Source: Selaginella tamariscina
Lineage: Eukaryota > Streptophyta > Lycopodiopsida > Selaginellales > Selaginellaceae
NCBI GenBank assembly: GCA_003024785.1
Contig: PUQB01000008.1
Coordinates: 560,868-624,867, forward strand
Length of the DNA stretch: 64,000 nt
Direction: 5' to 3'
Shown: positions 2,346 through 61,540 of the stretch, in pieces
Position numbering within the stretch: the first letter of the stretch is position 1
How the letters are laid out: every line of letters starts with the position of its first letter
Made by a program: the position numbers and the translations under genes
The notes under the pieces: model-generated
The model's input: only the letters and a program-made list of their open reading frames with translations
Told to the model about the DNA's origin: nothing
The model's database searches: none

Positions 2346-3150
2346 CATTCACCATGCGTTTATAATGAAAAGGGTAAACCCTAGATATGAATAACACCAA
2401 TTTTGAATTGCATGTTCACTTCTTTTGGGACATGATTATGATTTGTATATATTCATTCTTTTTGGACTTTTTCATAATTAAAAGATATTCACTTAGGTTT
2501 ATTTATTTATTTTTATATATATAAACTTCACTCACTTTGAAATATTTTTCTATAAACATGCAAGTTATAACTAAAATGGGCATGGCTATAGTCCCATTTC
2601 CTAATAATTAGCAATTTTAGCTATTTAATTAGCATTTTCTAATATTAAAGGAATATTCTTTAGAAATATATGTTTGAAAATAGAATATTCTTTAGAAATT
2701 CTATTTTGTATTCTACCCTTTAATAAATTATAGCATTCATTGAAAAAATTAATAACATTATAAAAGTAGAAGGTATTAAATTATATAATATATTGCCTAA
2801 TATAACAATTAAGGAAGAGCATAAGAGGTACATTATATAAATATTGATGTTTTATTAAAATATTAATATTTAAATATAACATTATTAATTAAAAATTTGT
2901 AGTAGTAATAATAATATATACAAAATCCTATAATAATATAGTCAATCTTCCATATCATTTTTTAAATTTATATAGTTAAGTATACAATTTGGTACTATTA
3001 TTAAAGAGTTTATAATAATTATGAATATTAAATATATGATATTTTATAATTTTGTAATTGCTTTAAGCTTCAGAAAACATACATTCCCTTGCAGTTTTAT
3101 TAATCGTGACTTTATCAACGCTTCTTGACATCCACCCATATCGAATGGAT

Positions 3151-6100
3151 TTAACATTTATAAAAACATGCTGGGTCTTTTTGATTGGGAGACCATGTTT
3201 TCTCTAGGCATCCATTATATCTTTCGCTCTCCTTCTCGTGTCGCCTTTTTTGTGGTTTGAACCATGCAACCTTAACAATACTATTTTTTGTGATTACTTC
3301 AGGTGTGTCGATAATTTGACCCATCCAAATAGGCTGATTATATGACGCATCTGGAGTAATGAGAACCATCATTAGTTTTTGAAGATCCTGGCAACAATCA
3401 AAGTATGCTTTAGGTTTTTGGTTCCTTTGTCCAACAAAGTGTGGGGTTTGCACTTCCACATCACTACTGGCTTCTATGTCGTCTATGCTCAATGATGTCA
3501 TTTCAATCTCCTCTCGCCACCTTGTTTTAGGCCAGAAAGGGTGTTGCAATTCTGTACTTGTGACAATAGGCCCTTCCAACTCTCGAACAATAGTCTCCCA
3601 ATAGTCGACCACATGCTTATATAGTTCTGAGTAACCAGTTGCCTTATCAGAATTCTTTGGCATTGATTTTTGAACCCATGCCACATATTTTTTGATGCCA
3701 TCAATAATAACCTCTTGTTCCTTGAGCTGGGCACTCAATGGAATAGGGTCTGGTTGTCCTTCTGGGAGAAGTGGCTTTCCATCCTCTCCACTTTTGAAGA
3801 GCATTAATCCCTCTTTCGGTAACCACTCCTGCTCTGATGGCCGTAACTTGTACTGCATAATAGGTATACCATCTCGTATGGAGAAAAAGAATTGTAGCGG
3901 CACAAGGTGACCAACTAAAGAATCACTCCCTTCTTTTATATACTCCTTGAGAAATTTTTTGAAGTCTGGCACCTCAGTCACAAGCAAAGCACAACTTTTT
4001 TTGGAGATGCAATTTTCAAAAAGATTCATCATATGCGGTAAGGTAAGTGCACTTGTCCTTTTTGTAAAGTTGGAGACCTTGCTGAAGAACGCATCAATAT
4101 CTTCATGAGTGTGACCAACCATAAGGAAACTGAGCGTGATTGTTTCAAACACACCTTTGGCAACAAGCATTGACAAGTATGCTAGCACATATCTAGAAAA
4201 TAAAAGTAAGTATGAGCTTGAGAAACCCTTAAGTAAAATGATTTACCTATTTTTGTTCTCGCCACAATTATCCATCTGTAAAAGCAAATGACGAGGAAGC
4301 TTATTTGATGTTGAGGACACATGTACACTATTTGAGCTAGATCCCTCCACTGAACCAGAACTCTCAACAGGGCCATCTATTTTCTGTGCAGGCTGTTGAC
4401 AATGCTCTCATATTCCCAAGTAGCCTCAAGTGCAAATGTGTTCATGAGAGCATTATGTAAAGGTTGAAGGTGTTGTTTCTTCACTTTGAGATCACTGATA
4501 GGACTTGTCTGTGAGTGGGCTTCAAGGTTTCTGAAACACATGGCTAACGACCCAATAGTGAAATTGGAGTCGCTAGACCAATGTGGAAGTGAAAAGTGTC
4601 CATATGACTCACAACCGTGTCCATGTGTTAGCACACATGTCAATGAAATCGGAAGTTTCATGACATTTTCAAGGCACTTTGGTGTTGCAAAGAGCTTTGG
4701 AATGCTGGTCTTTGAATGATCCATCTTGTCATGGATCAAGCACAGGTACTCTGATGGGCGTGACACAGAAAGCATGCGGTGTGCATAGTACTGAGACCAG
4801 CAAGTTTGTTGTGCAATCATGTGAGCCTCCATCTTCTTTGAATGGTAGTGATCTCCACCAAGGTTTTTGCACAAGCCTCTGCAGCCTTCAATGATGTACA
4901 AGTGTCACACTTGGAAAAGCTAGAGTGTTTTGCAATCTCCACATCCTTAAAATGAGTATTCCATATGTTGTTGAAGGTACCAGTGCAGATTGCTTGGAGC
5001 CCCATCAAACTGAGGCACTTGTTCACATGTTCACACAGCTTCAATTGAGTGTAGATTGAAGGCAAAACCTTGAGATTTTCCCTGACCCTTGCATTTGTGA
5101 TTCGGCATTTGTGAGGCATCCTGTCTGCATTTGCTTCCACAAAAGCCTTGAGTATCTCTATGGCAGCCATGATGTGAGAGCGGGTTTTGACCAAGCGAGT
5201 GTTCCCATGAACTGAGGTTCGCGCTCCATCTAGCCACTCATCCCTCCGACGGTAGAACGTGGTCTTTGGGATCCCGTATATACTGTACCAAGCTTTGAAG
5301 CAGATGGCCACCTTATTAAATACCATGGATGTACTCTGATAACATGTGTCCGAGGCCATTCTATCAATACACCCAATTAGTGCAGCATATACAAACTCAT
5401 GCCTTTGCTTTTGGGTGAGCGTACGAAAGACATGTCTACATTGGGTAATTTCATTCCGGTCTGCCATCTGACAACACTTCTTCTTGCAACAGTCAATAGT
5501 GGAAATGCTCGTAACACTTTCGAAAGATGTAGGATCCATCTTTACCCTCTTGCTGAAACTTGCAGGGGAAGATCTACAACCCATGAATCGTCTTTTTCTT
5601 ACAATAGGACCAATGCAAGGAACCTCTTCAAATATGAGTTGTTCTTCCGGGTTGTTATTATTGAAATCCAACCCAGAATATGTTGAACCATCTTGCCGTT
5701 TTAATTCAGATGTTCGCCACCTCACGAGGGATCTAGGATACAATGTGCCATTAGGTGAAACCTCTGTCACAACTACACCCACGAAGTCGGACCCTAGTTT
5801 CTCTTCTGACACTGCTTCCATTGGATTTATAGCTGTGATGATGCCTCTTCCGACTTCAATCTCACGAAGAAAGAGAATCACCTCATCCATCACAGCAGGC
5901 AAGCCATCATCTGGTAAACTCGTGCTACTATTTGTTTGTGACTCTGCATATTCTGTGTCAGCCTTGACTTCATCCAAATTCCACAATACAGGAGAACCCC
6001 TCAAATTCCATTCCCAGAACCTCAACATGCTTGTAAATGGTGTTCACCCATACGTACACACAAGATCCTTGGGCAATATTGTGACATGATGCATTATTAT

Positions 6101-6188
6101 CTCGAACTTCCACAGTTCCAGTGCCAACTATCTCGTTGTTCCGAAGAAGACATACTTTATCTCCAGTAATAAACATATTGTCCTGCAC
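3151..6188 (-). pseudogene. DUF7869-like transposon-associated protein, frame-broken
   Basis: No enzymatic role is known for this family; such genes are multi-copy and resemble domesticated or decaying transposon genes. The longest frame (403 codons) runs from ATG 6,028 to 4,817. It contains a module around DEVILFLREIEVGRGII, and a similar module sits in the upstream piece 6,188-5,970 (GDKVCLLRNNEIVGTG). A Cys-rich segment (CDTCTSLKAAEACAK) precedes a 1-nt frame change near 4,845. Reading continues at 4,901-4,377 with KMDHSKTSIPKL, then DNCGENKNR. A 54-bp GT-AG intron (4,193-4,246) leads into the 4,192-3,151 exon with GHTHEDIDAFFS, the family signature. A second frame change near 4,380 could be an intron. 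The breaks may be decay or consensus errors. The coding order matches the family throughout. Confidence 0.72.
4193..4246 (-). other. 54-bp intron in the DUF7869-like gene
   Basis: On the minus strand the donor GTAAATC follows the codons for GENKN, and the acceptor TTTTCTAG precedes YVLAYL. Splicing restores an uninterrupted frame across the two conserved blocks. Confidence 0.8.
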
Positions 6189-6327
6189 ATAAATAATTGT
6201 ATTATTTATGATATCTGTTTATGCAATATTTTTAAGAAATCTGAATTACGGTTACTTAATAATATGGATATGCAATAATACATAATTATGTTTAAAGATA
6301 ATATCTCATGTTTGATTAATACAACTG

Positions 6328-6860
6328 ATGGGCGGGATTAATCCCGCCCACGAATCCCTCCGACGAGGAACGGTCGGCGGGATTAATCCCGCCGTCGACT
6401 CAACCCCTTCGGAGAGAGTTGGCGGGATTAATCCCGCCCACAATTCTTATGACGGGGAATGGGTGGCGGGATTAAACCCGCACATAACTCTCTCCAAAAC
6501 TATGATTTCAAAGAGATCTCGGGATAAATCCTGTTCTCAAATCCTTAAAACAGGGATGTGGTGGCGAGATTAATCCCGCCACCCCTTCCCTGCCTCCTAA
6601 AATGGTTGGCGGGATTAATCCTGCCGACAACTCTTTCTAATAAATTCTGGTAACTCTTCATCAGTTGAGAAGGTTATCGGCGGGATTAATCCTGCCACTC
6701 TTTTTCAGTGGCGGAGAAGCATTGCCCGAGAGATGATGGCGGGATTAATCCCGCCACCTCTTCGAAGAGGCGAAAAAGAAATGGCCGGATTAATCCCGCC
6801 GCCCCGGTTAACCTAGAATATTAAATTAAAAGGATATTTAAACGGGATAAATCCCTAACG
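6328..6860. repeat. Palindrome array I (18-bp GGCGGGATTAATCCCGCC family)
   Basis: Nine clear copies start at 6,331, 6,376, 6,421, 6,465, 6,563, 6,608, 6,679, 6,738 and 6,783, with weaker ones near 6,507 and 6,843. Four are perfect 18-bp palindromes. Early spacings are 45, 45 and 44 bp, so the array behaves like a 45-bp monomer satellite with diverged spacers. It begins about 140 bp upstream of the DUF7869-like gene. The GC-rich copies contrast sharply with the AT-rich surroundings. Function unknown. Confidence 0.95.
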
Positions 6861-7380
6861 AAATATATTATAATCGTAATGCATTCCTAAACCCCTAAAT
6901 TGTAATCTTAAGAGAGAATGTAAGAGAGTGAATCTTTATAAGTATTTTTAAATTTGTTTATAATACTTACTTGTAAACAGCACTGAAGGCGCCGTGCTTT
7001 CTTATAAAGAATAGCACCCAATTTAATCTCGCTCCTGAGATGATCACTATGAAGAAAAAAAAATCTAAAGAGTGAAAAATACAGAAATGAAGAAACCCTT
7101 GCCGGAGAAAGAACCAAATCTGAATTTGAGTGGGAAATTAAATGCATTTTCAAATTTACATGTCAGACCGACAATACATATGTCAGAAATTCAAATGGAA
7201 CAGAAAATAAAATTTAAGATGAGTTGACACAAATATCCGACACTCTGACATATATACTCTCCAGTTCCAATAAGTATTTTAAAATTGCATTTAATGTTAT
7301 TCAAGTGATTCAAGCTGTTTAATATTACGAAATTTTAGACTATATTCTACATTCTTAGTATTCAAGTATATTTATATTAT
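6861..7380. other. AT-rich spacer, no gene seen
   Basis: The only open frame (minus strand 7,153-6,908, 81 codons) has no recognisable motif and no splice partner that I can support. I see no RNA gene. Confidence 0.5.
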
Positions 7381-8145
7381 ATATATATAAATATATACTT
7401 ATACAATAAATAAATTGATATATTATTATGTATCATTTAAAATATATTCATAGTCTGTTTATTATTAATTACTCGAGTATTTAGTTTTCATTTCCTAGTA
7501 TCAATGGGATATTCTTTATTATTTTATTAATATTTGAAGAATATTCTAATATTAAACCTGATTATCATAATTAAATTAGTCTTGTTCTTAATTATTGCAG
7601 TAATTATTCTACATTTGTATATATTAATGGGATTTTCTCAATTAATTTGTTATTATTTCAAGAATATTCATGTGTTAAACCTTATTATCAATATTAAATT
7701 AATATATATTATTAAAACTATATATGACTATATATTAGATAAAATGATGTATTATTATGTATAATTTAAAATATGTTCATAGTGTGTATATTAATATCAT
7801 TTCCTTAATTACTTGAGTAATTAATCTTCTTTATATTAATGGGATTCTTTATTATTTTCTTATTATTCCAAGAATATTCCAATATTAAACATGATTATGA
7901 TAATTAATTTAGTTAATTATTTGAGTACTTAATTTACATTTGTATATATTAATGGGATTTTCTCAATTAATTTCTTATTATTTCAAGAATATTTCAATGT
8001 TAAACCTTTTTATCAATATTAAATTAATATATATTATTAAAACTATATATGGCTATATATTAGATAAAATCATATATTATTATGTATAATTTAAAATATG
8101 TTCATAGTGTGTTTATTAATATTATTTTCTTAATTATTCGATGTT
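7380..8145. repeat. ~327-bp AT-rich tandem repeat, about 2.3 copies
   Basis: The block containing TATTATTATGTAT followed by TTTAAAATAT and TTCATAG recurs at 7,421, 7,750 and 8,075, about 325-329 bp apart. The intervening sequence (including ATTAATGGGATTTTCTCAATT) is also repeated. It is non-coding despite a chance open frame at 7,534-7,764. Confidence 0.8.
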
Positions 8146-8452
8146 TGTTTTGCACACATATATAAACACAATCATAAATTTACACACGCATTACAAGAAC
8201 TTACAAAAACATATATGCACACACATGCACAACCCTAAACCAAACTGAAGAAATATGTTGCTTCTTTATTGAAAACATCATGTTCAACGCATGTATGATA
8301 TATGTACTCAATCTGTGTGTATGTAACACATTGAATTTACATGTGTAATATTTATATTAAGCTTGTTGGGAGCAAACCCTAAACCCTGTGTATACATGTG
8401 TGTACAAAAATAATTTTTCAACACTCTCTCTTCACACCATGCATGATCCATC

Positions 8453-8477
8453 CTAAACCCTAAACCCTAAACCCTAA
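8453..8477. repeat. Short interstitial telomere-type repeat (CCCTAAA)
   Basis: Three and a half units of the plant telomere repeat CCCTAAA lie in tandem, with isolated copies at about 8,225 and 8,383. The tract is too short for a chromosome end and looks like an interstitial remnant or a telo-box cluster. Confidence 0.85.
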
Positions 8478-8479
8478 TA

Positions 8480-9030
8480 TGTAACACAATGAATTTACTC
8501 ATGTAATATGTATGTATGTCTGTGTGTATACACGTGTGTATGTATATATGTGTACTCTGTATGTATATATGTGTACTTTTTGTCTTCTCTCATACATACA
8601 CACCATGCATGATCCATGTTAATATGTACTGTCTCTCTTCTCTCAAACATACACACCATGCATGATCTATAATATGTACTCGGTCTCTCTAATATTATGT
8701 ACTAATATGTATGTATGTCTGTGTGTATACACGTGTGTATGTATATATTATGTGTATTAATATATGCAATGTGTATGTATGTATTGATACACATGAAACT
8801 TTAACACTCTCATGGATACACACATGTTAAATCCCTGCATGATTTATATTTTTGGGGTGTATGTGATACACCCACGCACACGCACGCGCTAATAATATAA
8901 TGAAAGAATATTCGTTTAGGGCGAATCTATATTTTTATTCTTTTTAGGGTTTAAGTATATTCTCAGAAGGAATATTCTATTAGGGTTAATATATATATTT
9001 AATTCCTTTAGGATTTAGGTATATTCTTAG
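8480..9030. repeat. TG/TATG-rich microsatellite region
   Basis: Mixed (TATG)n and (TG)n tracts. A ~45-bp block (TATGTATGTCTGTGTGTATA and what follows) occurs near 8,500 and again near 8,705. CATACACACCATGCATGATC recurs three times between 8,430 and 8,670. No gene seen. Confidence 0.7.
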
Positions 9031-9099
9031 GGTTTCAAGAGGTGGCGGCTGTGAAATCGGCGGCGGCGGCTGTGCACACAGGTGAGATCTGTGTGTGTG

Positions 9100-9597
9100 T
9101 GTGTATATGTATGTATGTATATATGTATAGGAGTGTGCGTATAATTTTATGTGTACCAGTATTTATAAAAAAAATTTTATTGATCTATCTCTCCCACACA
9201 CACGCACACTGCTTTACATATATATATATATATATATAATCAATGCATATTAACAAATAGTATACAACACTAATTTATATATATGCTTATATATTCATAT
9301 GGGTTATATATCTATATACACACATATATATATGTGTGTGTTTATCTGTATAATTTTATTTATTTATTAGTTTTATCTCTCGCACACACACGCACACTCC
9401 TGTGTATATATATGTGTGTGTGTGTGTTTTGTTTATCTGTATGATTTTATTTGTTTCGCTCACACACGCATACACACAATATACATATACACATATATAT
9501 ATACCTATATACATATATACATACATATATTATGTGTACCAGTATCTATATAATTTTTTTTATTGATCTATCTCTCCCACACACACGCACACTGCTT

Positions 9598-9641
<44 letters not shown>

Positions 9642-10009
9642 AATCAATGCATATTAACAAATAGTATACAACACTAGTTTATATATATGCTTATATATTC
9701 ACAGACTCTCTTTCTTTCTCTATGGGTTATATATCTATATACACACATATATATGTGTGTGTTTATCTGTATAATTTTATTTATTTATTAGTTTTATTTT
9801 TCGCACACACACGCACACTCCTGTGTATATATATGTGTGTGTGTGTGTTTGTTTATTGTATGATTTTATTTGTTTCGCTCACACGCATACACACGATATA
9901 CATATACACACATATATTATGTGTACCAGTACTGTATAATTTTATTTATTTATCTATCTCTTGCACACACACGTACACTCCTATACATACATACATACAT
10001 AATATATAT

Positions 10010-10041
<32 letters not shown>

Positions 10042-10105
10042 TATATGTGTGTGTTTTTATCTGTATAATTTTTTTATTTATTAATTTTTTCTCTCGCACA
10101 CACGT
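9100..10105. repeat. ~386-bp tandem repeat built of microsatellites, three copies
   Basis: GTGTACCAGTA followed by a T-rich tract, ATCTATCTCT and (CA)n starts near 9,149, 9,534 and 9,920, about 386 bp apart. A second block with ATCAATGCATATTAACAAAT occurs at 9,239 and 9,641. The repeats abut palindrome array II. Open frames in this stretch translate only TA/CA repeats. Confidence 0.8.
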
Positions 10106-10700
10106 AAGCCCCTCGAGCGGCGGGATTAATCCCGCTATAGGTTTATGGCATCGGCGGCGGGATTAATCCCGCCGCTATATGGTTGGGGCCATGGCGGCGG
10201 GATTAATCCCGCCGCACCCTCACGCAGCCTGGCGAATGCGGCGGGATTTATCTCGCCGGCAATGGCCTGTGTGAAGGCCCTAATGGGCGGGATTAATCCC
10301 GCGGATTCCGCGCAGGGCATTTACAGGGATGGGCGGCGGGATTAATCCCGCCGCTCATGAGGCTAACCGAAGAGCCTGCATGAAAGATCCTGCACGGAAG
10401 GCTAACATGTCCTGCGCGTAAGGCGGCGGGATTAATCCCGCCGCCCAGGGAATTCACGCAGGACATGAACGGCGGGATTAATCCGCCCCACGCTCATGCC
10501 CTTCGCGGAGGGCGGCGGGATTAATCCCGCCGCTCAGGCACTTCCGCAGGATATAAGCGGCGGGATTAATCCCGCCCCCACCCATCCCTGTTCAAAATGC
10601 CGCAGCCAATATATATGTGTGAGCGCATGATTTACGAGAGGGCGGCGGGATTAGTCTCTCCGAACCTTCATTACCCGGTGGCGGATTAATCCCGCCACCC

Positions 10701-10845
10701 TTTTTTCCTCCATTGGTATGTTGAATCAATCCCGACTAACTCTGTCTGAGACGGAGAAGGTTTACAAAATACCAATGGAGGGAACTGAGAAGGGTGGTGG
10801 ATTAATTTCACCATCCCTTACATGGTGGGCGGGATTAATCCCGCC
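10701..10845. repeat. Higher-order direct repeat, copy 1
   Basis: This 145-bp segment runs from TTTTTTCCTCCATTGG through GTCTGAGACGGAGAAGG to CATCCCTTACATGGTGGGCG. It recurs about 537 bp downstream. Inside it, CTCCATTGGTAT and ATACCAATGGAG form a short inverted pair about 45 bp apart. Confidence 0.85.
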
Positions 10846-11235
10846 GCGTACGCATGCCCTGCGCGGAATCGGGCGGGATTTATCCCGCCGCCATTGGCCT
10901 GCCTGAAGGGCCTAGGCGGCGGGATTAATCCCGCAAGATTTCGCACAGGGCATTGGCGTTCGGCGGGATTAATCCCGCCGACTAAGGCCCGAGTGAAGGG
11001 CCTGGGAGGCGGGATTAATCCCGCGTACGCATGCCCTGCGAATCGGGCGGGATTTATCCCGCCATTGGCCTGCCTGAAGTGCCTAGGCGGCGGGATTAAT
11101 CCCGCCCGATTCCGCGCAGGGAATTGGCGTCCGGCGGGATTAATCCCGCCGCATAGGGACCGAGTGAAGGCCCTGGGCGGCGGGATTAATCCCGCCGAGT
11201 CTTCAATGCCTGTTGGAGGAATGAATCCCGCCACC

Positions 11236-11385
11236 CTTCCTTTTTTCTCCATTGGTGAGTCGGACCAATCCCAAACGTTTCTGTCTGAGACGTAGAAGGT
11301 TTACAACATACCAATGGAGAGAATTGGGAAGGGTGGGGAAATTCATTTAACCATCCCTTACATGGTGGGCGAGATTAATCCCGCC
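11236..11385. repeat. Higher-order direct repeat, copy 2
   Basis: Second copy of the 10,701 segment, diverged at scattered positions and with the same order of elements. It shows that array II grew partly by duplication of a ~0.5-kb block. Confidence 0.85.
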
Positions 11386-11676
11386 TCCTTTCTGGAGTCA
11401 CTGAAGGGGTGTGAGAAATAAATCCTGCCCAGTTCTCTCTGAGACCGAGAAGGGTGGCAAGATTAATTCCGCACTCCCGTTCAAGGCCTCCAGAAAGGTG
11501 GCGAGATTAATCCCGCCCACTCTTTCAGGAGGCATTGAAGGGGTGGCGAGATTAATCCCGCCGCACCTTCCATGTGAATATATATGTGTATTAGTATATA
11601 TAAGTTGCATATCTCATTTTATTTACTTTTATCATCTTATCATAATATTTCGAGTAAAAGCTAGGAATCTATGTAA

Positions 11677-11763
11677 AACTGTCCAGAGCTCACATTTGTG
11701 GTGGTTCTAAAACGAAATGTTATCTTTCTTTTGCACTAGCACAAATGTGAGCTTCGGACAGTT
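11677..11763 (+). ncRNA. miRNA-like hairpin candidate
   Basis: A 24-nt arm at 11,677-11,700 (core GAGCTCACATTTGTG) pairs with 11,740-11,763 (core CACAAATGTGAGC). Only two adjacent mismatches interrupt the stem, and the loop is 39 nt. Stem length, pairing and loop size fit a plant miRNA precursor. It lies between array II and the ParB-like gene, perhaps in that gene's leader. I do not recognise the mature sequence as a known miRNA. It could instead be a small inverted-repeat transposon remnant. Confidence 0.45.
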
Positions 11764-11905
11764 AATTACGTCTACTTCTCTCTGTGTATTATTTTTGTAT
11801 ATTCGGGTTTATACAAGTGTGTGTGCGTTTTTATATGATTTGTATTCATAGTGTATTATTTTGCAGAAGGACGATTTGATCAAACAAGGAGATCGAGTCA
11901 TTAGT

Positions 11906-14900
11906 ATGGAGTCGTCGTCAAATTCTGGGTAAGAATTAAAATAAAATCTGTTATACTCGGATACTTGAACTAATCATTTTTGTATTCAGATGTGGAATTG
12001 AGGTGACATTAAAGACAAGAGCAGGAGAAGAGATGGGCAGGGGGATTCTGGAATCAACTTGGCCATATTTTAAGATAAATGGGAAGCGCATTGGAGCAAC
12101 CATGGTGCTGTCAAATTAACCTCTGTCACATCTCATGGACAAGCAAAACAATGGAAAGTAGATTCGCTAGTCAAGCACCCGAAAGCAGGCTGCGAACCCA
12201 GATTGGACGATTCGACAGATATGCCTTGTTCCATCCAATGTCACGTTCTCGGATCCAGAGGTCGTCAGTTACAACATTAATTTCGGGTGGTTTTGTCGAC
12301 TTGTGGATAATGACGTTCACGTGTTCACTAATGATGTTGACCTTGGAGTTCTTCTTCAACTCAACGAAAGCCCATCTATGGAGGGGATCCATCTGGATGT
12401 CTACTTCGAAGATCTTCAGACTCATCGAGTAGGTGTATTGTCAGGAGATATTGCTTCACAATACAGAAAATCAGCAAGTGGAGCAATCTTCCCTCTTCAC
12501 ATTGAAGAAGAACACAGCGACATCATAAGGAGATTGAGAGGGTGGCTCGGTCTCAGGTTCTCTACAGATCACGTTCAATTTGCTTAGGAGCTTTGGGAGC
12601 TGGAAGAGTGTGCCGAGAACACTAGAACAGCTGCAGTCGGGGATCACACATGTTGATTCGGATCGCAAAAGAAAATCATCAATCGTTTTGTCAGCTGCAC
12701 CTGTGGCATCTCATGCTGCAATAAGTCACAAGGAAATGATGTTGGATGAAAGATTTATCCTTGTAGGGTTAAATATTGCAGCGTCAACCCAAACTTCAAT
12801 TACAGGCCACTCAACCAGGAACGTGTAGCTGAGCTCATGGAGAAGATGAAGGACGACAATTCTTATACCGTTCCACATAATGCTGTTTTGTGTCCATACT
12901 ATGAAAGAAGGAAGGGCGCTGACAAAGTCTGGATCACAACACCAGAACAACTCATGAAGATTCAGACGGAGAATAAAAATCTATCAAGTACTACATCATT
13001 AGTGGCCAGCACACAATAACGGCAGCCCAACGACTTCTCGATGAACACAACAAAGGAACGATGGCAACAAAACTTTCCGAGCATACCCGTGAGAAGCTGA
13101 CAAAAAGATCGGCGTTTTTAGCTAAGCCGAATCTCACAATCGAGCAGTACCATAAGTTATCGGCGGAATGGGACGCTGCCGACACCAACCACTACAACAG
13201 CAAAATATGGGAGAAGTTTAAACACACGCGAGCCGTGTGGGAATCTCTTCAGCGACCACAAAGAGCTACCGCAGGGAATACACAATCTGCGGAATACCGG
13301 GTAAGCAAATTGTTTGGGCGGGATTTATCTCGCCGGTATATTAATCTGTCTTTTTCCTCAGAGAGTTGAAGAAATTGCAGCAGTTGATTTTGCCCAGGTG
13401 GGCGGGAAGGAAACATCCTTTCTGATGATGTTGATTTCTTGCCCCGAAGATAGGATCTTTGCCAAATGGTTGGGGATTATGGAATCCTTTTCAAAAGGAA
13501 CACTGAAGAAGAAGCAGACAAGTGAAGGGGAGCCCTCAGAAAAGTCTGCAAAGAAACCCAGTAAGACGCCGAAGGCTAAGTCTGTTCAATCTACAAAGGA
13601 TGTAGACAACGATTTCAAGCTCACATGGTTGAAGCCTTTAAATGGAACAACGATGGAGGAGATGGAAGTCTTGGCTGATTTGGTGATCGATGGCAAACTA
13701 CAAATTAATAACAGCAGCCCAACCTCTCCTTTTCATCTCAAGGCAATGGAGTTGAAGACGGTCAGGCATTTCAAGGAGTGGTTGGGAATACACTGCCACA
13801 AACTGGGTTGGACCTCGACTTCAACATATGAAGAGGTCAGCAAATATTTGCATGTGACGAACGATGATATGCTTGTCGAATGGGTGAACCAATCGGAAGA
13901 TCTAGGCAAGAATCTATTGCACGCCAACGCCAAAAAGGAGAACATTGGGATGACGCCTTCTCTTATGGCAGTCCTTCAGCAGCGGAGAACCGAATTGAAC
14001 CTTATAAAGGAGGATGCTACGAATCACGACAAGCCCTACAGATGTTTGTTGTTAGATTCGGAGACTTTATGGGGTAACATCACTGCTTGTAGGAAACCGT
14101 TTCAATTGTTCGTGATGGATCGGCGGGTGTCAAAAAATCTTTCGACAGATAGGGCACTAGAGGATCTGGTGGAGAAACTTAGCCGTGCAAGCATATACAT
14201 AGAAGGTATTTATTATTGAATTCATGCTTGCGCTCTTCACTGATACCTACTTTTTCAGGTATTTATTTCTTGATTCTTGCTCATGTCACCGATACTTTTG
14301 CCTTCGCCTTCGCCAAGAAGAATAGACATCGTTGGACAGGATTTTATATGAACGATGCTAATCCCAAGTGCATTGATACCGTTGTTCACTTGGTTGTTAG
14401 GAATGCGCCAAACAATTTCAAGCTTCCAAATGACTGGCCAGGCATCTGTTTGCACTCCAACGGCCCTGAACCTCCATCCGATACACCGATAGGTATGAGT
14501 GACGTATTCGGCAATGTACGTTATCCAAACATTACAAGTCAAGCGGCACGGAGCATCGTCAACTTGATTAGGGGTCCTGACAGTGATGCGTGGGTTTTTG
14601 ACTACTGCACTAGGGGGTCCGTCTTGAAGGAGTGTTACCTTCGGCATACATGTGTGTTTGCCGTTGAAAAGGATAAGACCATGGTTGAGGACCTGAACAA
14701 GTGGATAGATTGGGTCTCAACTGAGTACCCCAACGAATCCATAAAGGCGTATTTGAGAAAGTTCCCTCCAGATAAGTGCGATAGCTCTGAAGGTGAATCT
14801 GGTTCAATCTCGGAGTCTGAGAACGAACTTCAATCAGATATTAGACCGGAAGTTATCTCGAGGAGTACAGAACATTCGCACACTCCAGGACCCATGGAAA

Positions 14901-15004
14901 CATCAATAGAAGATGCAGAAGATCTTGAACCATCTCACAAGCGGCTTAGACCTTCTTCGCCTCACTCAGAAGGTAATAGCGAAGAAGAATTGATAATGAA
15001 TTGA
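11906..15004 (+). CDS. ParB-like / degenerate DNA amino-methyltransferase-like protein, with frame breaks
   Basis: A probable first exon (11,906-11,928, MESSSNSG) has donor GGTAAGAA; the next exon begins after TATTCAG near 11,990. Its module EVTLKTRAGEEMGRGIL resembles the module in the divergent gene at 6 kb. The 12,000-13,060 part reads only with several 1-nt frame changes (near 12,110, 12,590, 12,768 and 12,983). It holds a ParB-type start (NYRPLNQERVAELMEKM) and the box ISGQHTITAAQRLL, equivalent to the G-[EQ]-[RH] box of ParB nuclease/CTPase folds. Clean exons follow: 13,061-13,300, 13,362-14,205 and 14,259-15,004, joined by 61-bp and 53-bp introns. The C-terminal part has NITSQAARSIVNLI followed by VFDYCTRGSVLKECYL and FAVEKD. 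This matches the AdoMet-binding end of beta-class N6/N4 DNA methyltransferases, but with the usual DPFxGSG box altered and no clear (D/N/S)PP(Y/W). Activity is therefore doubtful. The tail is acidic and Ser-rich. Confidence 0.6.
13317..13334. repeat. Isolated palindrome copy inside an intron
   Basis: GGCGGGATTTATCTCGCC lies within the 61-bp intron 13,301-13,361 of the ParB-like gene. It is the same variant as the copy at 10,240. It is the only copy outside the two arrays. Confidence 0.85.
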
Positions 15005-15276
15005 TAGAGTGATGAATAGTTGTAAATGAGTGTAACATAAGGCATTTTTGTATATTTCTTTTATATTTGTACAGAAAATAAATTCTCAAGGATTAATGAA
15101 GCTTTTAGTTCAAACATGGGTCACACATTAACAAGGTAAATAATATACCTTGATAATTTTAAGGTCAGCTAATTATCATTTTGCAGATGTAATGAAATAA
15201 TTGAGAACATGGATTTTCAGCATTGGCATGAGGTAAGAGAGGGGTTTGGCGACAATTTCTTGTGCCACATGTCAGA
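15005..15276. other. Short spacer between the ParB-like and HAD-like genes
   Basis: AT-rich, with a possible GT-AG pair (GTAAGAGAGG near 15,232 and ATGTCAG at 15,275) that could mark a 5' leader intron of the next gene. No other feature seen. Confidence 0.35.
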
Positions 15277-16421
15277 ATGACAGAGTTCATGCAGGAAATG
15301 GATAATAATGCAGCTCAAAACATCGTTACCATGGGGGCCACTTCATCATCATTTTTATTGGCTTCAATTCCGAAATCAATTTCTTCAGCGCATGCAATAT
15401 CTGAATCTTGTAAGGATGATGTACAATTAAATGATGAAGGGATAGGCAACGAGATAGTGGCAACGGATAAATGTGAAAGGGAGCAAACAAGTGATTTGCA
15501 AAGTATTCAAGAGGCAACGCTATCTCATGTTACTCATGGCCATATTGTGTTGTTGGATGTCAATGGTGTTCTGCTTCATCGACAAAGGCCCCAGGATAGA
15601 AAAAAGAAATCAAACAAGGAGATTTCATTCCTTGTCATGGTAAATTTCGATATGATATTATTTTTCGTCCAGGGTTGGATCGTCTCTTTCAAAAGCTTAA
15701 GGAGATGGGTGCGCTTGTGGGGATTTGGTCATGCATGCAGATTCATAACTTAACACCGCTGTTGAATTTACTTAAGAAACATTGTAGTGTTGCAGAAGAG
15801 GTGATTCGTAAAGATTGGATTTTTGACCAGCGAATGTGTTATAAACCTCTCGAATTTCACAATATAAGAAAGGAAAGCAAGCCATACTTCTTCAAGAATG
15901 AAAGAATAATTGGGACTCATGGGGAGATCAGTCGCTTAAGGATAATGAAGAACGCACAGATGTTAGTAGTAGACGACTCTCCTCAGAAGGCTATGCTCAA
16001 CCAAAACATTGCTTGTATTCATCCAATCACTTTCGATCCATATTCTGATACCGATATCATGGATGAGCTAGTGAACTACTTGGATACGTGCCTCAGAAAG
16101 AAGAATCTCGAAAATTTTTGTGAGCAGTATCCACCGTATCATACATTTCCTGAAGCTTTTCTTTCTCGTGATATTGAATTTTATAAAATGAAGGATAGCA
16201 ACCGGGCGCTTTATAATATTATTCTTAAGGAACGTCAGTTTTTAGATGAGCCTTTATGCAGACCTTCTCTTATCACATCTTATGTATTAACAAGGATGGC
16301 AACTCCCAATTGCATTCGTGAGAGTGTTAAGTGGTGGCAACAACATCAAGATATTGACCAAAATGATTTGATTAATCCGGAGAGTGATGATTTAGACAAA
16401 ATAAAAGATTTCTTTGTATGA
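15277..16421 (+). CDS. FCP1/NIF-type HAD phosphatase-like protein
   Basis: The family removes phosphate from phospho-Ser, as in the small CTD phosphatases of RNA polymerase II. Start ATG 15,277; upstream reading in this frame gives no better Met. Residues about 1-85 are a poorly conserved leader. Then comes HGHIVLLDVNGVLLH with the nucleophile Asp in a D-x-N-G form, FRPGLDRLFQKLKEMG, WSCMQ, and QMLVVDDSPQKA, the Asp-Asp box of HAD motif IV. One base is missing near 15,636, where the frame jumps between FLV and GKFRYDIIFRPG. Allowing for it, the length is 1,146 nt or 381 aa. The same kind of 1-bp loss occurs in other conserved genes here, so an assembly error is likely. The D-x-N-G form replaces the canonical DxDx(T/V), so activity is uncertain. 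It lies 270 bp downstream of the ParB-like gene on the same strand. Confidence 0.75.
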
Positions 16422-18034
16422 TAGAAGAAAGTATTTATAAAAAAATTAACATGTTGATAAGAAAATGATTTCATTTGTAATTATGTTTGATAGTATTTCT
16501 TCATTATTGTAAACTATTTTTAGAATAATATGAATATTCTAAGATATTTTAGGAATATTCCTTACTAAGTAAGGTTATTGAAGGATTAATTAATTAATTA
16601 ATATTTAAGGCTTAATTACATATTAATTAAATGATTAATTAATAATTAAAACTTAAGTATTAATTAGTAATTTATTTTATATTCCCATTTTCACGTATCA
16701 TGCCCACTTTAGTTACAACGTGCATAAACAAGACGTGAGAAGAAAGAACTAATATGTAGTGAGGCATGTACACAACTCAGGCATTTACAACACATGGATG
16801 AAGGCAAGAGCCAAGATTTATTTTTATATATTTTATATGAAATGAACTTAATTAAATTCTTTTGAGTGCAGGCAGATGGATTTAGAGGATTGGAGTACAA
16901 AGGGTTTGTTACTATGTAGGAGACCATGAAATACTTGGGGATGCATTATAAGAGGCTCAATTTTTCACTCCTAAATACTTCAAAATTTACAATTCATGAA
17001 CATAAAGTAGCCACAAACAATGTAGTGGTAGGCATGTATATACTCACGCTACTCAACATTGTCCAGAAGATGATATAACTGATGTCTCAACATTTAATTA
17101 ACAATCAAAGTTTAGTTCGATAATTAAGAAGAAGAAGAATGTGGCCATTATGATAAGAAACATTGCAAACATTGCACTTGCAATAGTATAGACTTTAAAA
17201 TTCATTAATAATACAATTGAGTGATAAATGTGATATAAGGTAAGAGTCTCACTTTGTAAGTTTGGTGTTAGTAGGGTAAAAGTCTCATTTTATAAAGCTG
17301 TTCCTTGGCACTCACTTTGTATAACTTCGTGAGGTTGGTGTTTCACTGGCCATTAATTTCTTTTATTCAATAGTTAATAATGAAAGTGTGTGAATTTTTT
17401 TTCTTTATTTAATAATATAAAGCTTTCCAAAGAAATGGAAAATAAATTTCAAGTATTATTTCCATTATTCATAAAGTAAAGTAAATGGATGTCTGAGATA
17501 ATTCCAACTCATTTAATTTTTACATAGTAACATGAATATTTATTATGTTAATTGTTCATTCTTAATATTTTTCCAAATAAGTTTTTAAAAATGTATAAAA
17601 ATTTATCCATTTCTAAGGAAGACATATAAATCCAATAATCAAGGTAATTCGGATTCATCAAATAACACCTGAACAATCAAGGTAATTGGATTCATCAAAT
17701 AACATCTGAATTCACCTTAGATTACACTACATAACACATCAAATTCACAATCTCAATTGGTGAAGATACACAAAGGAAAGGTGAATGACATTTAAATTTC
17801 ACTTCGTGATAGTGAAAATTCAATTAATAAACCCACATGTTCTCAAAAGAAATAAAATTTATAAAGTATTAAAAATTAAGGAAACTCATTGAATTACTAA
17901 AAAAAAAAACTTTTAAACGAACACATATACTCCACATATAGCTCACTCCATTAATAATTTATATCACTTTGTGATCTACATATGGTGTGAAATAACAACT
18001 GTTAAATATTCTATTATATGCTTAATTAAATGGT
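16422..18034. other. AT-rich spacer, no gene seen
   Basis: Contains TTAATTAA-rich tracts near 16,580-16,670 and a small repeat (GTAAAGTCTCA-like, near 17,240 and 17,275). No open frame with recognisable motifs. It ends at the target site of the Gypsy element. Confidence 0.55.
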
Positions 18035-20329: not shown

Positions 20330-21290
20330 GAAAGAAAGTCTCCACCAGCTGGGTTTTGCCAACCTCTAGCTGTAACTCCTCCACACAAGCAATTTAGCTC
20401 TATGTGACAACTAAGCCCTTAATCTCATATTGAGGCACAGTCTTCGTTCAGCTCCACCAGCTGGGTTTTTGCCAACCTACAGCTGTAACTCCTCCACACA
20501 AGCCTGTAGCTCTGTGTGATAGCTGAGTCCTTAATCTCGTATTGAGGCTTTTCGCGCAGCTCCACCAACTGGGTTTTGCCAACCTATAGTTGTAACTCCT
20601 CCACACAAGCACTGTAGCTCTGTGTGATAGCTGAGTCCTCAATCTCGTATTGAGGCTCTTCGCGCAGCTCCACCAGCTAGGTTTTGCCAACCTATAGCTG
20701 TAACTCCTCCACACAAACAATGTAGCTCTATGTGATAGCTAAGCCCTCAATCTCGTATTGAGGCTCTTCGCGCAGCTCCACCAGCTGGGTTTTGCCAACC
20801 TATAGCTGTAACTCCTCCACACAAACAATGTAGCTCTATGTGATAGCTAAGCCCTCAATCTCGTATTGAGGCTCTTCGCGCAACTCCACCAGCTGGGTTT
20901 TGCCAACCTCCAGCTGTAACTCCTCCACACAAGCAATGTAGCCTCTGTGTGATAGCTGAGACCTCAATCTCATATTGAGGCTCTTCGGGTAACTCCACCA
21001 GCTGAGTTTTGCCAACCTCCAGCTGTATCTCCTCCACACAAGCACTGTAGCTCTATGTGATAGTTGAGCCCTCAATCTCGTATTGAGGCTCTTCGCGCAG
21101 CTCCACCAGCTAGGTATTGCCACTTCTAGTTGTAACTCCTCCACACAAGCACTGTAGCTCTATGTGATAGTTGAGCCCTCAATCTCGTATTGAGGCTTTG
21201 CGCAGCTCCACCAGCTAGGTATTGCCAACTTCTAGTTGTAACTCCTCCACACAAGCACTGTAGCTCTGTGTGATAGCTGAGCCTTCAAAT
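20330..21290 (-). repeat. ~108-bp (36-codon) tandem expansion inside the protease region
   Basis: Nine units are marked by CTCCTCCACACAA at about 20,377, 20,488, 20,597, 20,704, 20,812, 20,920, 21,028, 21,137 and 21,242; spacing is 105-111 bp, mostly 108. On the minus strand the unit reads as VEELQLEVG, TQLVEL, PQYEIE and AIT in frame, that is 36 residues. A single copy is expected in the protease fold, downstream of the active-site strand. Confidence 0.9.
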
Positions 21291-21448
21291 TCGTATTGAG
21301 GCACAGTCTTCGTGGGCAAGTTGCACTCCTCCACTAACTTTGTTGACACAAAGTTATCGCTACTCATGCTATCCACAAGGACTCGCACTGGACGCTCACC
21401 AAGTCGTCCCTCACCACAATAGCACGTGTGTGGCTCCTCCCGTGCCAT
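21291..21448 (-). pseudogene. Gypsy aspartic protease start
   Basis: The frame reads RPVRVLVDSMSSDNFVS, corresponding to the LVDSGSTHNFI block of Gypsy proteases. The Gly of the D-S-G triad is replaced by Met, so the enzyme is likely dead. It leads straight into the 36-codon tandem repeat. Confidence 0.8.
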
Positions 21449-50052: not shown

Positions 50053-50305
50053 CATATAACCTAGTAATACATACATATTTGGGAGGAATATGTATATCTG
50101 TTATTTGAGTTTATACATATATAATATTATTCCGGCTCCAACTTGTCGTGAATTGTGTTTGTTTGAACTATAGTTTGTCTGTACGCACGTGAATTGTGTT
50201 TGTTTGAACTCTAGTTTGTTTGGTTTCCTGTCATGCAAGTTGACTATTAGTGTAATTAAGATCATTAATAGTTATTTATTTATTCAATATATATATGTTA
50301 TGCAG

Positions 50306-50801
50306 GATGCGGATATTCTTTGGTTCCGTGACCCATTCCCACATTTCTCGACTTCTGCGGATATGGAAATTGCGTGCGACCGATTCAACGGCAATCCAAC
50401 GGACATAAGCAACGATCCGAATGGTGGATTCCTCCACGTAATCTCTAACAACCGTACGATCGACTTCTACAAGCTGTGGTACGACTCACGCCTTGAACAC
50501 CCTGACCACCACGACCAAGACGTGTTTAACGACATCAAGTACAGTACCTCGTTCAGGTGTGTCATTATACGTGTGTATGTGTGTGCGCATGTGTATATGT
50601 ACATCAAAAGATATACAATTGAAATGTAGTACAAACTAAGTAATAACTTAGAGTACCTAAATATGTATAGCATTATACAGACTGATGTAGTATACACTAT
50701 GTTGTTATTGTTTACATGTATATATAGTATTACATGCATCCCCTGTTCTCGTCCTATGTTCATTACACATATGCTTACTCACACACACAGCAGATATGAA
50801 A

Positions 50802-52951: not shown

Positions 52952-53788
52952 ATTATATATATATATATGTATTATATGTATATATAACACGCAGTATATT
53001 TATCTTCTAAGTATTCGCTGTTTCTCTAATATTATACCGTTTAATCAAAGACGTTGTTCACGCTCTCTCTCTATATATATAACAGGCAGTATATATTTAT
53101 CTTCTAAGTATTTGCTGTTTCTCTACATATACACAAGTTCTCACGTACAACCATACATATACTTGTGTACACGCTCTCTCTCTCTATAACACACACAGTA
53201 TATATTTATCTTCTATACACAAGTTCTCTCTCTACACACACACGCACACAGTGAAGTGTGTATATTAACTGTGTATATATATATTGACAGGATGCAGATA
53301 TATTGTGGTTTCGTGATCCATTTGAGAAATTCTCACAAGAATACGACGTAGAAATAGCGTGTGACCACTACACAGGGAGCCCCACAAGCCTAGACAATAA
53401 ACCAAACGGTGGCTTCGTACATGCATTTTCAAATAACAAAACTATAGCATTCTATAAGCTTTGGTACGCATCCCGTCTTTCGTACCAGGGCTTACACGAC
53501 CAGGCCGTACTGGACAAGATCAAGTATACAGAACCGTATTCCGTACTAGGGATGAGGGTTAGGTTTTTGAGTACGGAGCTCTTCGCCAACTTTTGTGAGA
53601 TAAATAGGAGCAGGCTGGAGAGTGTGTACACTATGCATGCAAATTGTTGTAAGGGATTATCAAAGAAGATTAAGGATTTAGGAAGGTTAATTAGTGATTG
53701 GAGCAAGTTCAAGTTTCTGAGTGACAAAGAGAAGATGGGTAAAAGTGTTTATCATTGGAGTCCTTTAGAATGTCCCAAGATCAAATAA
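51512..53788 (+). CDS. Nucleotide-sugar transferase GT2, right copy
   Basis: Type II membrane transferase like GT1a. Exons 51,512-51,712, 52,105-52,472 and 53,291-53,788. Start MGNEGVRMGAEKKWGW; anchor VPTVAAFLFISYFLSDP. Exon 2 has one base fewer than the left copy near 52,138, which stops the literal frame, then reads LNGAWSSRESMIDLFLKSF, LLEHVVIVALDERAY and MSSDYLKMMWRRIDFLR. Exon 3 is open for 165 codons: DADILWFRDPF with DxD, NGGFVHAFSNN, MHANCCKGLSKK. Because the left copy is in frame at the exon-2 site, a single-base consensus error is the simplest explanation, and this copy may be functional. Compared with GT1a it lacks three introns. Confidence 0.78.
52730..53235. repeat. (CT)n / (TA)n-rich tandem block in GT2 intron 2
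   Basis: A unit combining CACGCAGTATATATTTATCTTCT, AAGTATTTGCTGTTTCTC and a (CT)n tract recurs about five times between 52,640 and 53,220. The left copy has only two or three units, which explains the length difference. Confidence 0.75.
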
Positions 53789-57113: not shown

Positions 57114-57670
57114 TGTCAAGCCACGATCCAAGAAACAAGAAGTGAGTAGGATTCAAAAGTAGGAAGGCTTGACTCAGGAGCAGGATAGAAACAAGACAGG
57201 AACTAGGAACTCAGGAGCAGGAACAGGACGGATCCAGGAGCAGGACAGGATCAGGATAGGATCCGGGAGCAAGACAGGAAAGCGCAGGACAGGATCCAGG
57301 AACAAGATAGGAACTAGAAGGATCCAAGACAAGACAGGAGCAGGAGGAAAGAAAAACAAGAACAAGGAACAAGAATAATCGTAGAATGACTGGTGTTGAT
57401 AGTAACTGATTGTACAACAATTAGGTCGGAGCTTTTATGCTCACAACTCCAAGCTAATCTAGTCATGAGTCTAATCTAGTCATGAGCTAAGAATAGTGTC
57501 CCTTATCCTCTAGGCATATCCTGTAGCATATCCTATAGGCATATCCTATAGGTATATCCTGTAGGAATATCCTGCAGGCATATCCTGTAACCCGTATCCT
57601 GTATCCGAAATCCTGCATCCTGTATTGTATCCGGAATCCTGTATCCTGTATCCTGTATCGGGTTGTGACA
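57114..57670 (-). repeat. 3' LTR of the chromovirus
   Basis: 557 bp, TGTCAAGCC...GGTTGTGACA on the plus strand, i.e. TGTCACAACC...GGCTTGACA in element sense. The first part (element sense) is a CAGGAT/CAGGATATGCCT minisatellite; the last part is (CTGTCTTGCTCCTGGATC)-like. It is inverted relative to the LTR at 60,926-61,439. Confidence 0.9.
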
Positions 57671-57682
57671 GCACCTCCTCCC

Positions 57683-60600
57683 TAAGGACGAGTTCCACGA
57701 GTCTTAGGACCTGGTTTAGCAGGATAATGCCGATGGAAGGCAGCAACTTTGGAAGAAGCATGGAGTAAGTTGGATGCAGGTTCCCAAGTGCGATCGGTAG
57801 GCAAATAACCTTTCCAATCCACCAAGTATTGAAGTTGGCGGCGATGAAGACGAGAATCAAGGATGGCTGCAACTTCGTACTCAGGTTCACCAGCAATGAC
57901 CACAGGAGGGGGAGGAGAAGAAGCACGACCAGGAAGAGAAGAAGGATGATACGGCTCCAACAAGGAGGTGTGAAACACAGGATGAAGTTTCACCGTGGAT
58001 GGTAACTCGAGTCGGAAAGCTACAGGATTTACCTCCGCCACATCCTGTAAGGGCCCAATCGTTGAAAATCCAACTTAGAAGAAGGCCTGTTGGTGCGAAT
58101 GTGTCGACGAAGAAGCCACACGAGATCACCAATCTTGTATGCAGGTGCCGGCTGACGGTGAGCATCAGCATGATGCTTGTACCGTTCCTGTGCCTGCTGA
58201 AGATGAACCTGGAGATCATCCTGTACCTGCGAAGATGCTGAAGACGATCCTGTACTGCAGGAGCGGAAGAAGGAGAAGCGGAGGAGCAAAGTCAAAACGT
58301 GGATGGTGGCCTGTAAGAGCAAAGAAAGGTGTCTGTCCTGTAGATGCGTGAACGGAGTTGTTGTAGGCAAACTCCGCCATTGGAAGAAGGTCCAACCAGT
58401 TGTCCTGTTGGTAACTGATGAAGCAACGAAGATACTGTTCCAAGGTCTGAATTGTGCGTTCTGGACTGCCCATCGTTTGTGGTGATATCCTGAAGAAAGA
58501 TCCGCTTTAACCTGTAGACTCCGAAGAAGCTCTCGCCAAAACTTGGACATGAATTGTGGACCTCGATCGGAAACAATGCTCTCAGGAAGACCATGATGTC
58601 GGAACACCTCACGGATCACCAACTCGGCAGTTGTCTGACCTGTAGCTGTCTTGTTGCAGGGTAGGAAATGAGCCTGCTTGGTGAAACGGTCAACCACCAC
58701 AAGAACTGCATCGAATCCACGAGAAGGAGGAAGATCTGTGAGGAAATCCATAGAAATGGATCTCCAAGGAGCAGAAGGAACAGGAAGAGGACGAAGAAGA
58801 CCAGAGGGTGCATGATGGCATCTTCGACCTGTTGCAGTGTCACAACTCCGTACAAACCTTTCCACAAAACCCGCAACCCAGGCCACCAATAGTTGCGAGT
58901 CACCAACTCAACTGTCTTGGCCACACCAAAATGTCCTGTAGCCGGGGTATCATGACAATCCTGTACCACACGAGTCCTGCAAACACCAACAGGAACGTAC
59001 AGGAGACCTTCCCGGTACAGGAGTCCATCCTGTATGGTGAACAGGTTGTAGTCTGGACGGGAACTGGAGGAAGAGGAACTTGCAACGTCAGGATGAATGT
59101 GTGAGAACACATTCTTTGCCAAGTCGTCTGTAGCCAACTGCGAACGGACGTCCTGTAGGAGTGTTGAATTTGCTGGAGCCTGATGAACCTGCAGTGCCGC
59201 AAGCCGGAATCGATCAGGACCCAACAACACTTGCCTTTGACAGTCAAATGCAGGATCGCCCGGGCTTGGTGCAAGGTAAGAGCGCCTAGACAATGCGTCC
59301 GCCTTGCCATTCCGAAAACCGGGCCTGTAGACGATGACGAAGTCAAAACGTGATAGGAACTCCGCCCACCTAGCCTGTCGCGACTGAGAACTCGAGCCGT
59401 TTGAAAGTACTCCAGGTTCTTGTGATCCGTAAGAACTTGTACAGGATGTGCAGCACCTTCCAGGAAATGCCGCCACTCCTCAAACGAATCCACAATGGCC
59501 TTGAGTTCCTTGTCATGAATCTCGTAATTGATCTCCGCCGACAGGAACTTACGAGAGTGAAAAGCTACAGGATGAAGCAACTTGTCCTCTCCAACTTGCG
59601 ATAGGACGGATCCTACTGCAAAATCCGAGGCATCTGCTTCAACGAAGAAAGGACGAGAAGGATCAGGATGTGCTAAAATCGGAGCTGTCGTGAAGGTGTC
59701 CTTGAGTGTTGTGAATGCATGTTCCGCCTTGTCGGACCAAGAGAAAACCTCTGTGCGCTTGGTGAGTTCCGTGAGTGGAAGTACACGCTTGGAGAAGTCC
59801 TGTATGAACCGCCTGTAGAAGTTTGCAAAGCCAAGGAAACATTGTACATCTCGTACAGACTTGGGCCTCTCCCACTCCACGATGGTCTTCACCTTGTGCA
59901 TGTCCATGGAAACGCCAGCAGGAGAGACGATGTAGCCCAAGAACTCCACAGAATCCCTATCGAAAAAACACTTCTCCAACTTCGCATACAGGCCATGCTC
60001 GCGAAGCCGCTGTAGAACCAATCGTCATGTGCCGCCTGGTCCTTGGAGAAAATCAAAATGTCGTCGAGGTAGATCACCACAACTGGTCCAAGAAGTCACG
60101 AAAGATGTCGTTCACCATGTGTTGGAACACGGCTGGGGCATTGGTAAGGCCGAAAGGCATCACCGTGTACTCGAAGTGTCCATACCTTGTACGAAAGGCA
60201 GTCTTCCACTCATCGCCGGACGAATCCGTACAAGGTTGTAGGCCCCTCGTAAGTCGATCTTCGTGAACACCTTTGCTCCTCGCAGCCGATCGAGAAGTTC
60301 CGGGATCAATGGCAACGGGTACCGATTCCGAATGGTAACTTGATTCAAACCCCTGTAGTCCACAACCAAACGTAAGCTCCCATCCTTCTTCTTGACAAAG
60401 AAGATAGGCGCTCCTGCAGGGGACTTTGAGTGACGAATGAAGCCGGATGCCAAGTTGTCCTCGATGTACTGGCGAAGAACCTCCAACTCTGTGGGTGACA
60501 ATGCGTAAATCGGTCCGAACGGTGGAGTCTTTCCTTCTGCAAGATCAATAGGACAGTCGTAGGACCTGTGAACAGGAAGAACTGTAGCCTTGTGCTTGTC

Positions 60601-60900
60601 AAAAACGTCCTTAAAGTCGTGGTACTTGGATGGTAGAGAAGAAGGAGGAAAGGAGAAGGAGTAGGCGAAGGAGATTGAAAAACAGGAGAGTCAGACACAG
60701 GAAAGGTAGAAGAGGACGTAGGAGTTACTTGAAAGGCAAAAAGGTGGAAAGGAGCAGGATCAGTGGCAAGTTCATGCATGGTAGTGGTAAGAACTTGGAG
60801 AGGAGAAGGAGGAGCTGTGACTGAAAAAGAGGAAGGATCTTGGGGGGTGGAACAAAAACAGAGTAATGAAAAGAGCAGGATTGGGAGAAACAGATGTGGA
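57683..60900 (-). pseudogene. Chromovirus pol: RT, RNase H, integrase, chromodomain
   Basis: Minus-strand order. [64 protein letters not shown]. Then YRRFIQDFS and RNase H (EADASDFAVGSVLSQ, ELKAIVDSFEEWRHFL, LTDHKNLEYF). Integrase: GHFGVAKTVELVTRNYWWPG (zinc region), ISMDFLTDLPPSRG, IVSDRGPQFMSKFWREL and SERTIQTLEQYLRCF carry the D, D and E of the catalytic triad. C-terminal: GDLVWLLRRHIRTNRPS, LHPVFHTSLLEPYHP, then a chromodomain (EYEVAAILDSRLHRRQLQYL, VDWKGYLPTDRTWEPASNL). At least four frame changes (near 60,215, 60,030, 59,390, 58,880 and 58,475) interrupt an otherwise well preserved polyprotein. Confidence 0.88.
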
Positions 60901-60925
60901 TGTTGACAAGTGTACAGGATTGGAA

Positions 60926-61439: not shown

Positions 61440-61540
61440 GTTTGATAGTAACTGCTTTCATAGCTCTTCGTTTCCCAGCTACTTTTTTTTCCTTGATTCT
61501 TTTCCTTCGTTTTCTCCTTTTTTCTTTCATAAGATCATGG

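Follow-up and report, generated by a model that had tools for sequence, protein, structure and literature searches.

Arrays of an 18-bp palindrome in Selaginella tamariscina lie within an abundant Sola-like DNA transposon

We analyzed a 64,000-nucleotide stretch of the Selaginella tamariscina genome (contig PUQB01000008.1, positions 560,868 to 624,867 of the forward strand; hereafter the window), which contains two dense arrays of an 18-bp palindrome, or dyad, GGCGGGATTAATCCCGCC. Both arrays and both genes flanking them sit within one DNA transposon of about 14.2 kb bounded by terminal inverted repeats (TIRs). The best explanation, in which we have middling confidence, is that this transposon is abundant and recently active and that the arrays are its central cis-acting region, where a dimeric factor, perhaps the product of the element's own P2 gene, would act on the dyads to activate or de-silence the element.

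The arrays and the transposon that carries them

Matching GGCGGGATTAATCCCGCC over the whole window with at most 3 mismatches gave 35 dyad sites, 15 of them perfect, against 0.02 expected from dinucleotide shuffles. Beyond the two arrays and a lone dyad at 13317 no further site was found in the window at this threshold, so the first-pass annotation was right in describing two dense arrays with an intron copy and about fifteen perfect sites. When the window and 11 other loci (L009-L019) were taken together at up to 4 mismatches, there were 328 dyads, 116 of them perfect, and the spacing was 43-46 bp in 172 of the 279 neighboring pairs lying at most 100 bp apart. The distance to the likely start codon is 154 bp from the edge of the left array for the transposase and 343 bp from the end of the right array for P2, the two codons having been picked by eye from the window sequence; the arrays therefore flank the two presumed promoters of the element. 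Its features in the window are as follows.

2558..16725: TIR DNA transposon, about 14.2 kb, with a 4-bp target duplication AAAC at 2554-2557 and 16726-16729
2558..2584, plus strand: left TIR, 27 bp, beginning ATGCA, ATGCAAGTTATAACTAAAATGGGCATG
3154..6176, minus strand: DUF7869 transposase gene (Pfam PF25273, E 2.7e-26), frame broken in the window copy, ATG placed by eye at 6176-6174
6331..6800, no strand: left array, 9 dyads at up to 3 mismatches
6801..10118: AT-rich central stretch between the arrays, with microsatellites and a short CCCTAAA tract
10119..11562, no strand: right array, 25 dyads at up to 3 mismatches
11906..15004, plus strand: P2 gene of several exons, frames broken in the window copy, ATG and exon limits placed by eye
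13317..13334: lone dyad with 2 mismatches in a probable P2 intron, the intron judged by eye
15232..16421, plus strand: P3, NIF/FCP1-like phosphatase reading frame (Pfam PF03031, E 9.6e-10)
16699..16725, minus strand: right TIR, 27 bp, ATGCACGTTGTAACTAAAGTGGGCATG

The CCCTAAA tract, which is similar to plant telomere repeats, lies in the middle of the element at 8452-8477. P3 adjoins the right end of the transposon from within and is perhaps a captured host gene.

The 26-bp core of the termini, matched in the window at 2559 (plus strand) and 16699-16724 (minus strand), occurs exactly 2,760 times genome-wide, and among the 100 of these that were listed there are 20 inward-facing neighboring pairs within 25 kb, at a median distance of 14.5 kb. 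A 4-bp direct duplication immediately outside ATGCA...TGCAT was exact in 7 of 11 terminus pairs and in none of 110 mismatched pairings; the four pairs without it are C7, C29, C3 and C69, and no other duplication length from 3 to 8 bp matched in any of the 11. One copy (C80) is inserted in another copy, and its joined flanks, minus one target site duplication (TSD), match the window and three other copies at 40 of 40 bases, which gives an exact empty site. The 18-mer occurs exactly 27,128 times in the 300.7-Mb genome (1,391 contigs), whereas the reversed word is absent. From 2,760 ends no more than about 1,380 exact-ended pairs could be formed, covering about 20 Mb, which is an estimate and not a count of elements, and on this estimate there are about 20 exact dyads per pair, compared with 15 in the window and 23 in copy C84.

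The genome-wide search, which the first-pass annotation had proposed, also indicates that the arrays travel with the element. All exact sites among the matches listed fall into 11 clusters on one contig (C1), and several are paired arrays with about 3-4 kb between them. In 10 of the 11 stretches fetched there a cluster is adjoined by gene sequence of the element (77-99% identical DNA), on both sides of the cluster in six (L009, L013-L016 and L019). The eleventh stretch, L018, has a single exact site; it is similar to the array region in L017 and otherwise only borders on the neighboring copy, at that copy's right end. Among 30 loci selected by P2 protein, and thus blind to dyads, dyads were present in all 30, with 1-6 each and at least three in 28, the intron dyad being included in the count. 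Dyads are also retained in a diverged copy (L017) that shares about 80% identity with the window in its P2 stretch: 17 at up to 4 mismatches, 4 of them exact. Two exact sites in the genome have three A/T bases on both sides, and one of them (L074) is within an element copy.

In L017 (2808-5120) and L018 (3605-5469) we observed groups of dyads with different spacers, separated by AT-rich stretches, the two array regions being alike; L017 has an element end and a diverged P2, and no gene belonging to the same copy is seen with the L018 group. The two-site dyad pattern had no matches in viral and bacterial/archaeal collections, and no mention of the 18-mer was found in the open-licence PubMed Central (PMC) literature.

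A host regulatory region between host genes was rejected as an explanation because homology among the copies runs through both genes to the termini. The placement between divergent genes in the first-pass annotation is therefore correct as to position and not as to setting: both genes belong to the transposon, and transposition has spread the copies.

Conservation of the dyads and turnover of the arrays

In the right array the dyads vary less than the spacers. For 14 dyads in five copies the diversity pi was 0.031 in dyads vs 0.061 in spacers (of 740 circular mask shifts, 43 gave an equal or lower value), for five dyads at the array's end in 32 distinct rows 0.015 vs 0.029 (24 of 360), and for the last part of the array, a nested subset, 0.020 vs 0.029 (38 of 181). 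At CpG sites of the same three sets, pi of dyads and spacers was 0.060 vs 0.156, 0.022 vs 0.088 and 0.029 vs 0.065. This is in agreement with the first-pass proposal that the palindrome is kept while its spacers diverge. The core GATTAATC is conserved at 95-99% per position in 300 distinct sites chosen at up to 4 mismatches, and information content falls sharply at the 18-bp edge, a drop that is favored by the choice of sites according to their likeness to the dyad. Within the dyad, C-to-T changes at position 14 are the most frequent, and G-to-A changes at the mirror position 5 are also common; both have a CCG context, a pattern which would suit methylated plant transposons.

Spacers were compared as pairs of segments sharing an exact k-mer within 13 related copies, such pairs not being independent events. 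Direct and inverted pairs numbered 48 and 44 with 12-mers, 30 and 19 with 14-mers, and 15 and 13 with 16-mers. Copies differ in this respect, since with 12-mers some lean to inverted pairs (direct/inverted 5/13 in C84 and 2/8 in L013) and others to direct ones (7/1 in L012, 6/1 in L016 and 4/0 in L011). Three pairs of whole spacers are exact inverted twins, one in L013 and two in C84, and L019 has one pair of exact direct twins. As a control we used another tandem array of the window, with 108-bp units (20340-21302, 8.9 copies, all in one direction), and all of its 28 pairs were direct (16-mers). An ordinary satellite, which the first-pass annotation had named as the finding that would speak against it, would consist of head-to-tail and equally conserved monomers with no gene association. 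It was rejected: the spacers are less conserved, they occur in both orientations and the arrays lie within transposon copies.

In the left array the number of units between two fixed spacers ranges from 0 to 10 across 11 related copies (the window, L013, L019, C84, L076 and L078-L083). Eight copies (L076-L083) had been added for their long transposase frames, and of these L077 belongs to another subfamily. Changes are bounded by dyads, so that length alters in whole dyad-bounded units. That a block of two units had been inverted in place between L019 and C84 was considered and rejected, as an inverted duplication followed by later duplications and deletions fits eight more copies equally well or better; we claim only dyad-bounded rearrangement. 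Where a site is symmetric, neither exchange nor template switching has a set direction. This would explain why spacers occur in both orientations, and the arrays clearly illustrate how tandem units lose orientation at symmetric sites.

The same mixed orientations, the range of unit numbers and the inverted twins would also be expected of a self-propagating palindromic repeat, whose arrays would have no binding role and whose hairpins would promote template switching together with unequal exchange. We consider this rather unlikely: CpG variation in the dyads is only a quarter to under half of that in the spacers, the arrays stay beside both genes in copies read on both sides, and exchange explains the spacers but not, by itself, a near-invariant center.

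Genes of the element and the putative dyad-binding factor

The DUF7869 protein contains the motifs HDKMD, QMDNCGENKN and GHTHEDID, which appear to be of DDD type, and in copy C84 its gene has frames of 660 and 392 amino acids flanking a probable intron; the element points to a transposase role for DUF7869. Named relatives of the protein come from two liverworts, Calypogeia fissa and Riccia sorocarpa. The sequence profile of the family had no matches in PDB, and no mention of DUF7869 was found in the open-licence PMC literature. The arrays could bind this transposase as an internal enhancer of transposition or an assembly site. The many sites would suit such a role, as would a weak Transposase_23 match (E 0.031, below the cut-off) and, by eye, a TFYRRR segment that comes after a cluster of cysteines; however, the TIRs are, by eye, unlike the dyad and the arrays are central rather than subterminal, and we find this role improbable.

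Because the dyad is conserved and often perfect, the spacing regular and the position promoter-proximal while the rest turns over, binding of a dimer is indicated. A symmetric dimer of a protein that the element itself most likely encodes, P2 being the first candidate, would occupy the 18-bp dyads every ~44-45 bp. Each array sits just upstream of one of the divergent genes, the left one of the transposase and the right one of P2, and occupancy could drive or de-silence both promoters and also mark the element's own copies in the way of VANC on the motif arrays of VANDAL elements. The binding, its activating or anti-silencing outcome and the identity of the binder are inferences. P2 is the natural candidate since it looks constrained, with pN/pS of 0.33 (27 rows) and 0.18 (35 rows), adjoins the larger array and has no relative found elsewhere.

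Several points weigh against this explanation. The circular-shift controls for dyad conservation are only moderate, and the comparison of pi covers the right array alone, just the window's own row having passed the alignment test in the left one. Conversion between units could be an alternative keeper of dyad likeness. The other A/T-flanked site (L075) has no element gene in its 3 kb and its likeness is only to the L017 array; some arrays therefore lack element genes nearby, whether they are old or broken copies or something else. No family match above cut-off was obtained for P2, the best in NCBIfam being at E 0.0026 with 16.7 of 558 bits, and a search of 5.8 billion proteins, which was word-based and so limited, returned no relative of it. 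Most loci behind the pN/pS values of P2 were chosen by protein score, which favors intact copies, and P2 frames are broken in many copies.

A ParB-like fold was considered for P2 by eye (RPLNQERVAEL, ISGQHTITAAQ), but it was unsupported by sequence searches of Pfam, PHROGs, NCBIfam and PDB and is not claimed. Structure prediction without an alignment for a C-terminal piece of P2 from the window gave a useless model, with a mean confidence score (pLDDT) of 41.

A host protein could take the place of an element-encoded one. The arrays may capture an E2F/DP-like factor, or a homeodomain protein on the TTAATCC core, by which the element would be expressed in dividing cells, and the half-sites are indeed GC-rich and near the element's genes. 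The E2F consensus is TTSSCGC, and one E2F site needs less than a perfect 18-bp dyad. Compared with this consensus by eye, the half ATCCCGCC lacks the first T and is one base off, and the perfect dyad exceeds what a single site needs. Amplification of E2F sites by plant transposons is described in excerpts of PMC12595863, and we give the capture of a host factor a modest chance. Production of small RNAs from array transcripts folded into long hairpins is, on the other hand, very improbable: part of the right array (10820-11210) folds as RNA at a z of -15.8, but palindromes and inverted units yield such a fold regardless of role. By falling probability we rank these rivals to the main explanation as host factor, neutral hairpin growth, transposase binding and hairpin RNA.

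Elsewhere in the window, frames named by eye as Ty3-like reverse transcriptase and integrase lie at 57200-63950 amid short repeats of the TATCCTGTAGGCA type, which recur in the opposite direction near 60.9-61.1 kb. Two frames at 50174-50629 and 53288-53788 share QDADILWFRDPF and are a likely tandem gene duplication, perhaps of glycosyltransferases (by eye).

Comparison with known systems

TIRs, a TSD and an empty site are features of class II DNA transposons with TIRs, and all were found. The 8-bp TSD of hAT elements was present in none of the 11 terminus pairs; likewise the element begins with ATGCA and a 3-bp TSD was found in none of the 11 pairs, unlike in CACTA (En/Spm) transposons. En/Spm, which has CACTA ends and a 3-bp TSD, carries many short subterminal sites bound by its own protein TnpA. 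The element described here is similar in its many short sites but differs in its ends, its TSD and the central position of its arrays. By target duplication, size, ends and transposase motifs it resembles Sola, for which passages of PMC10741241 give a 4-bp TSD, TIRs and a size up to >15 kb, and report occurrence in a moss; the putative DDD-type motifs would add to this likeness. We call it Sola-like and do not file it as Sola because the comparison is one of features. The Sola features named in those passages do not include palindrome arrays, P2 or P3.

Sites resembling those of transcription factors have been spread by transposons in Brassicaceae as well, where, according to excerpts of PMC12595863, 10-bp E2F motifs are found mainly in miniature inverted-repeat transposable elements and Helitrons, in contrast to the dense and perfect 18-bp dyads of a full-size element.

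The motif of VANC21, YAGTATTAY, is short and non-palindromic, in contrast to the 18-bp dyad. VANDALs are Mutator-like and thus belong to a different superfamily from the Sola-like element. In passages of PMC5735166 and the abstract of PMC10398659, VANC is described as binding short motifs repeated in non-coding parts of VANDALs and causing loss of methylation. The likeness to VANDALs in these sources consists of a transposase with an accessory gene, a short motif repeated in the element's own non-coding regions and fast-diverging arrays; it is a likeness of arrangement, and anti-silencing is suggested here by analogy. A more specific and clearly more tentative proposal is that the Sola-like transposon has an anti-silencing or self-recognition system of its own, evolved apart from VANC, in which the orphan P2 would act as a dimer on the 18-bp dyads. 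As these are symmetric, exchange between them would have no direction, and the length, order and orientation of the arrays would turn over among close copies, the binding sites staying as they are. Rules of binding, methylation and array growth could be examined directly on 27,128 exact sites and many near-alike copies. If P2 does read the dyads, the element would be an independent case, outside VANDAL elements, of a transposon recognizing its own copies by repeated motifs.

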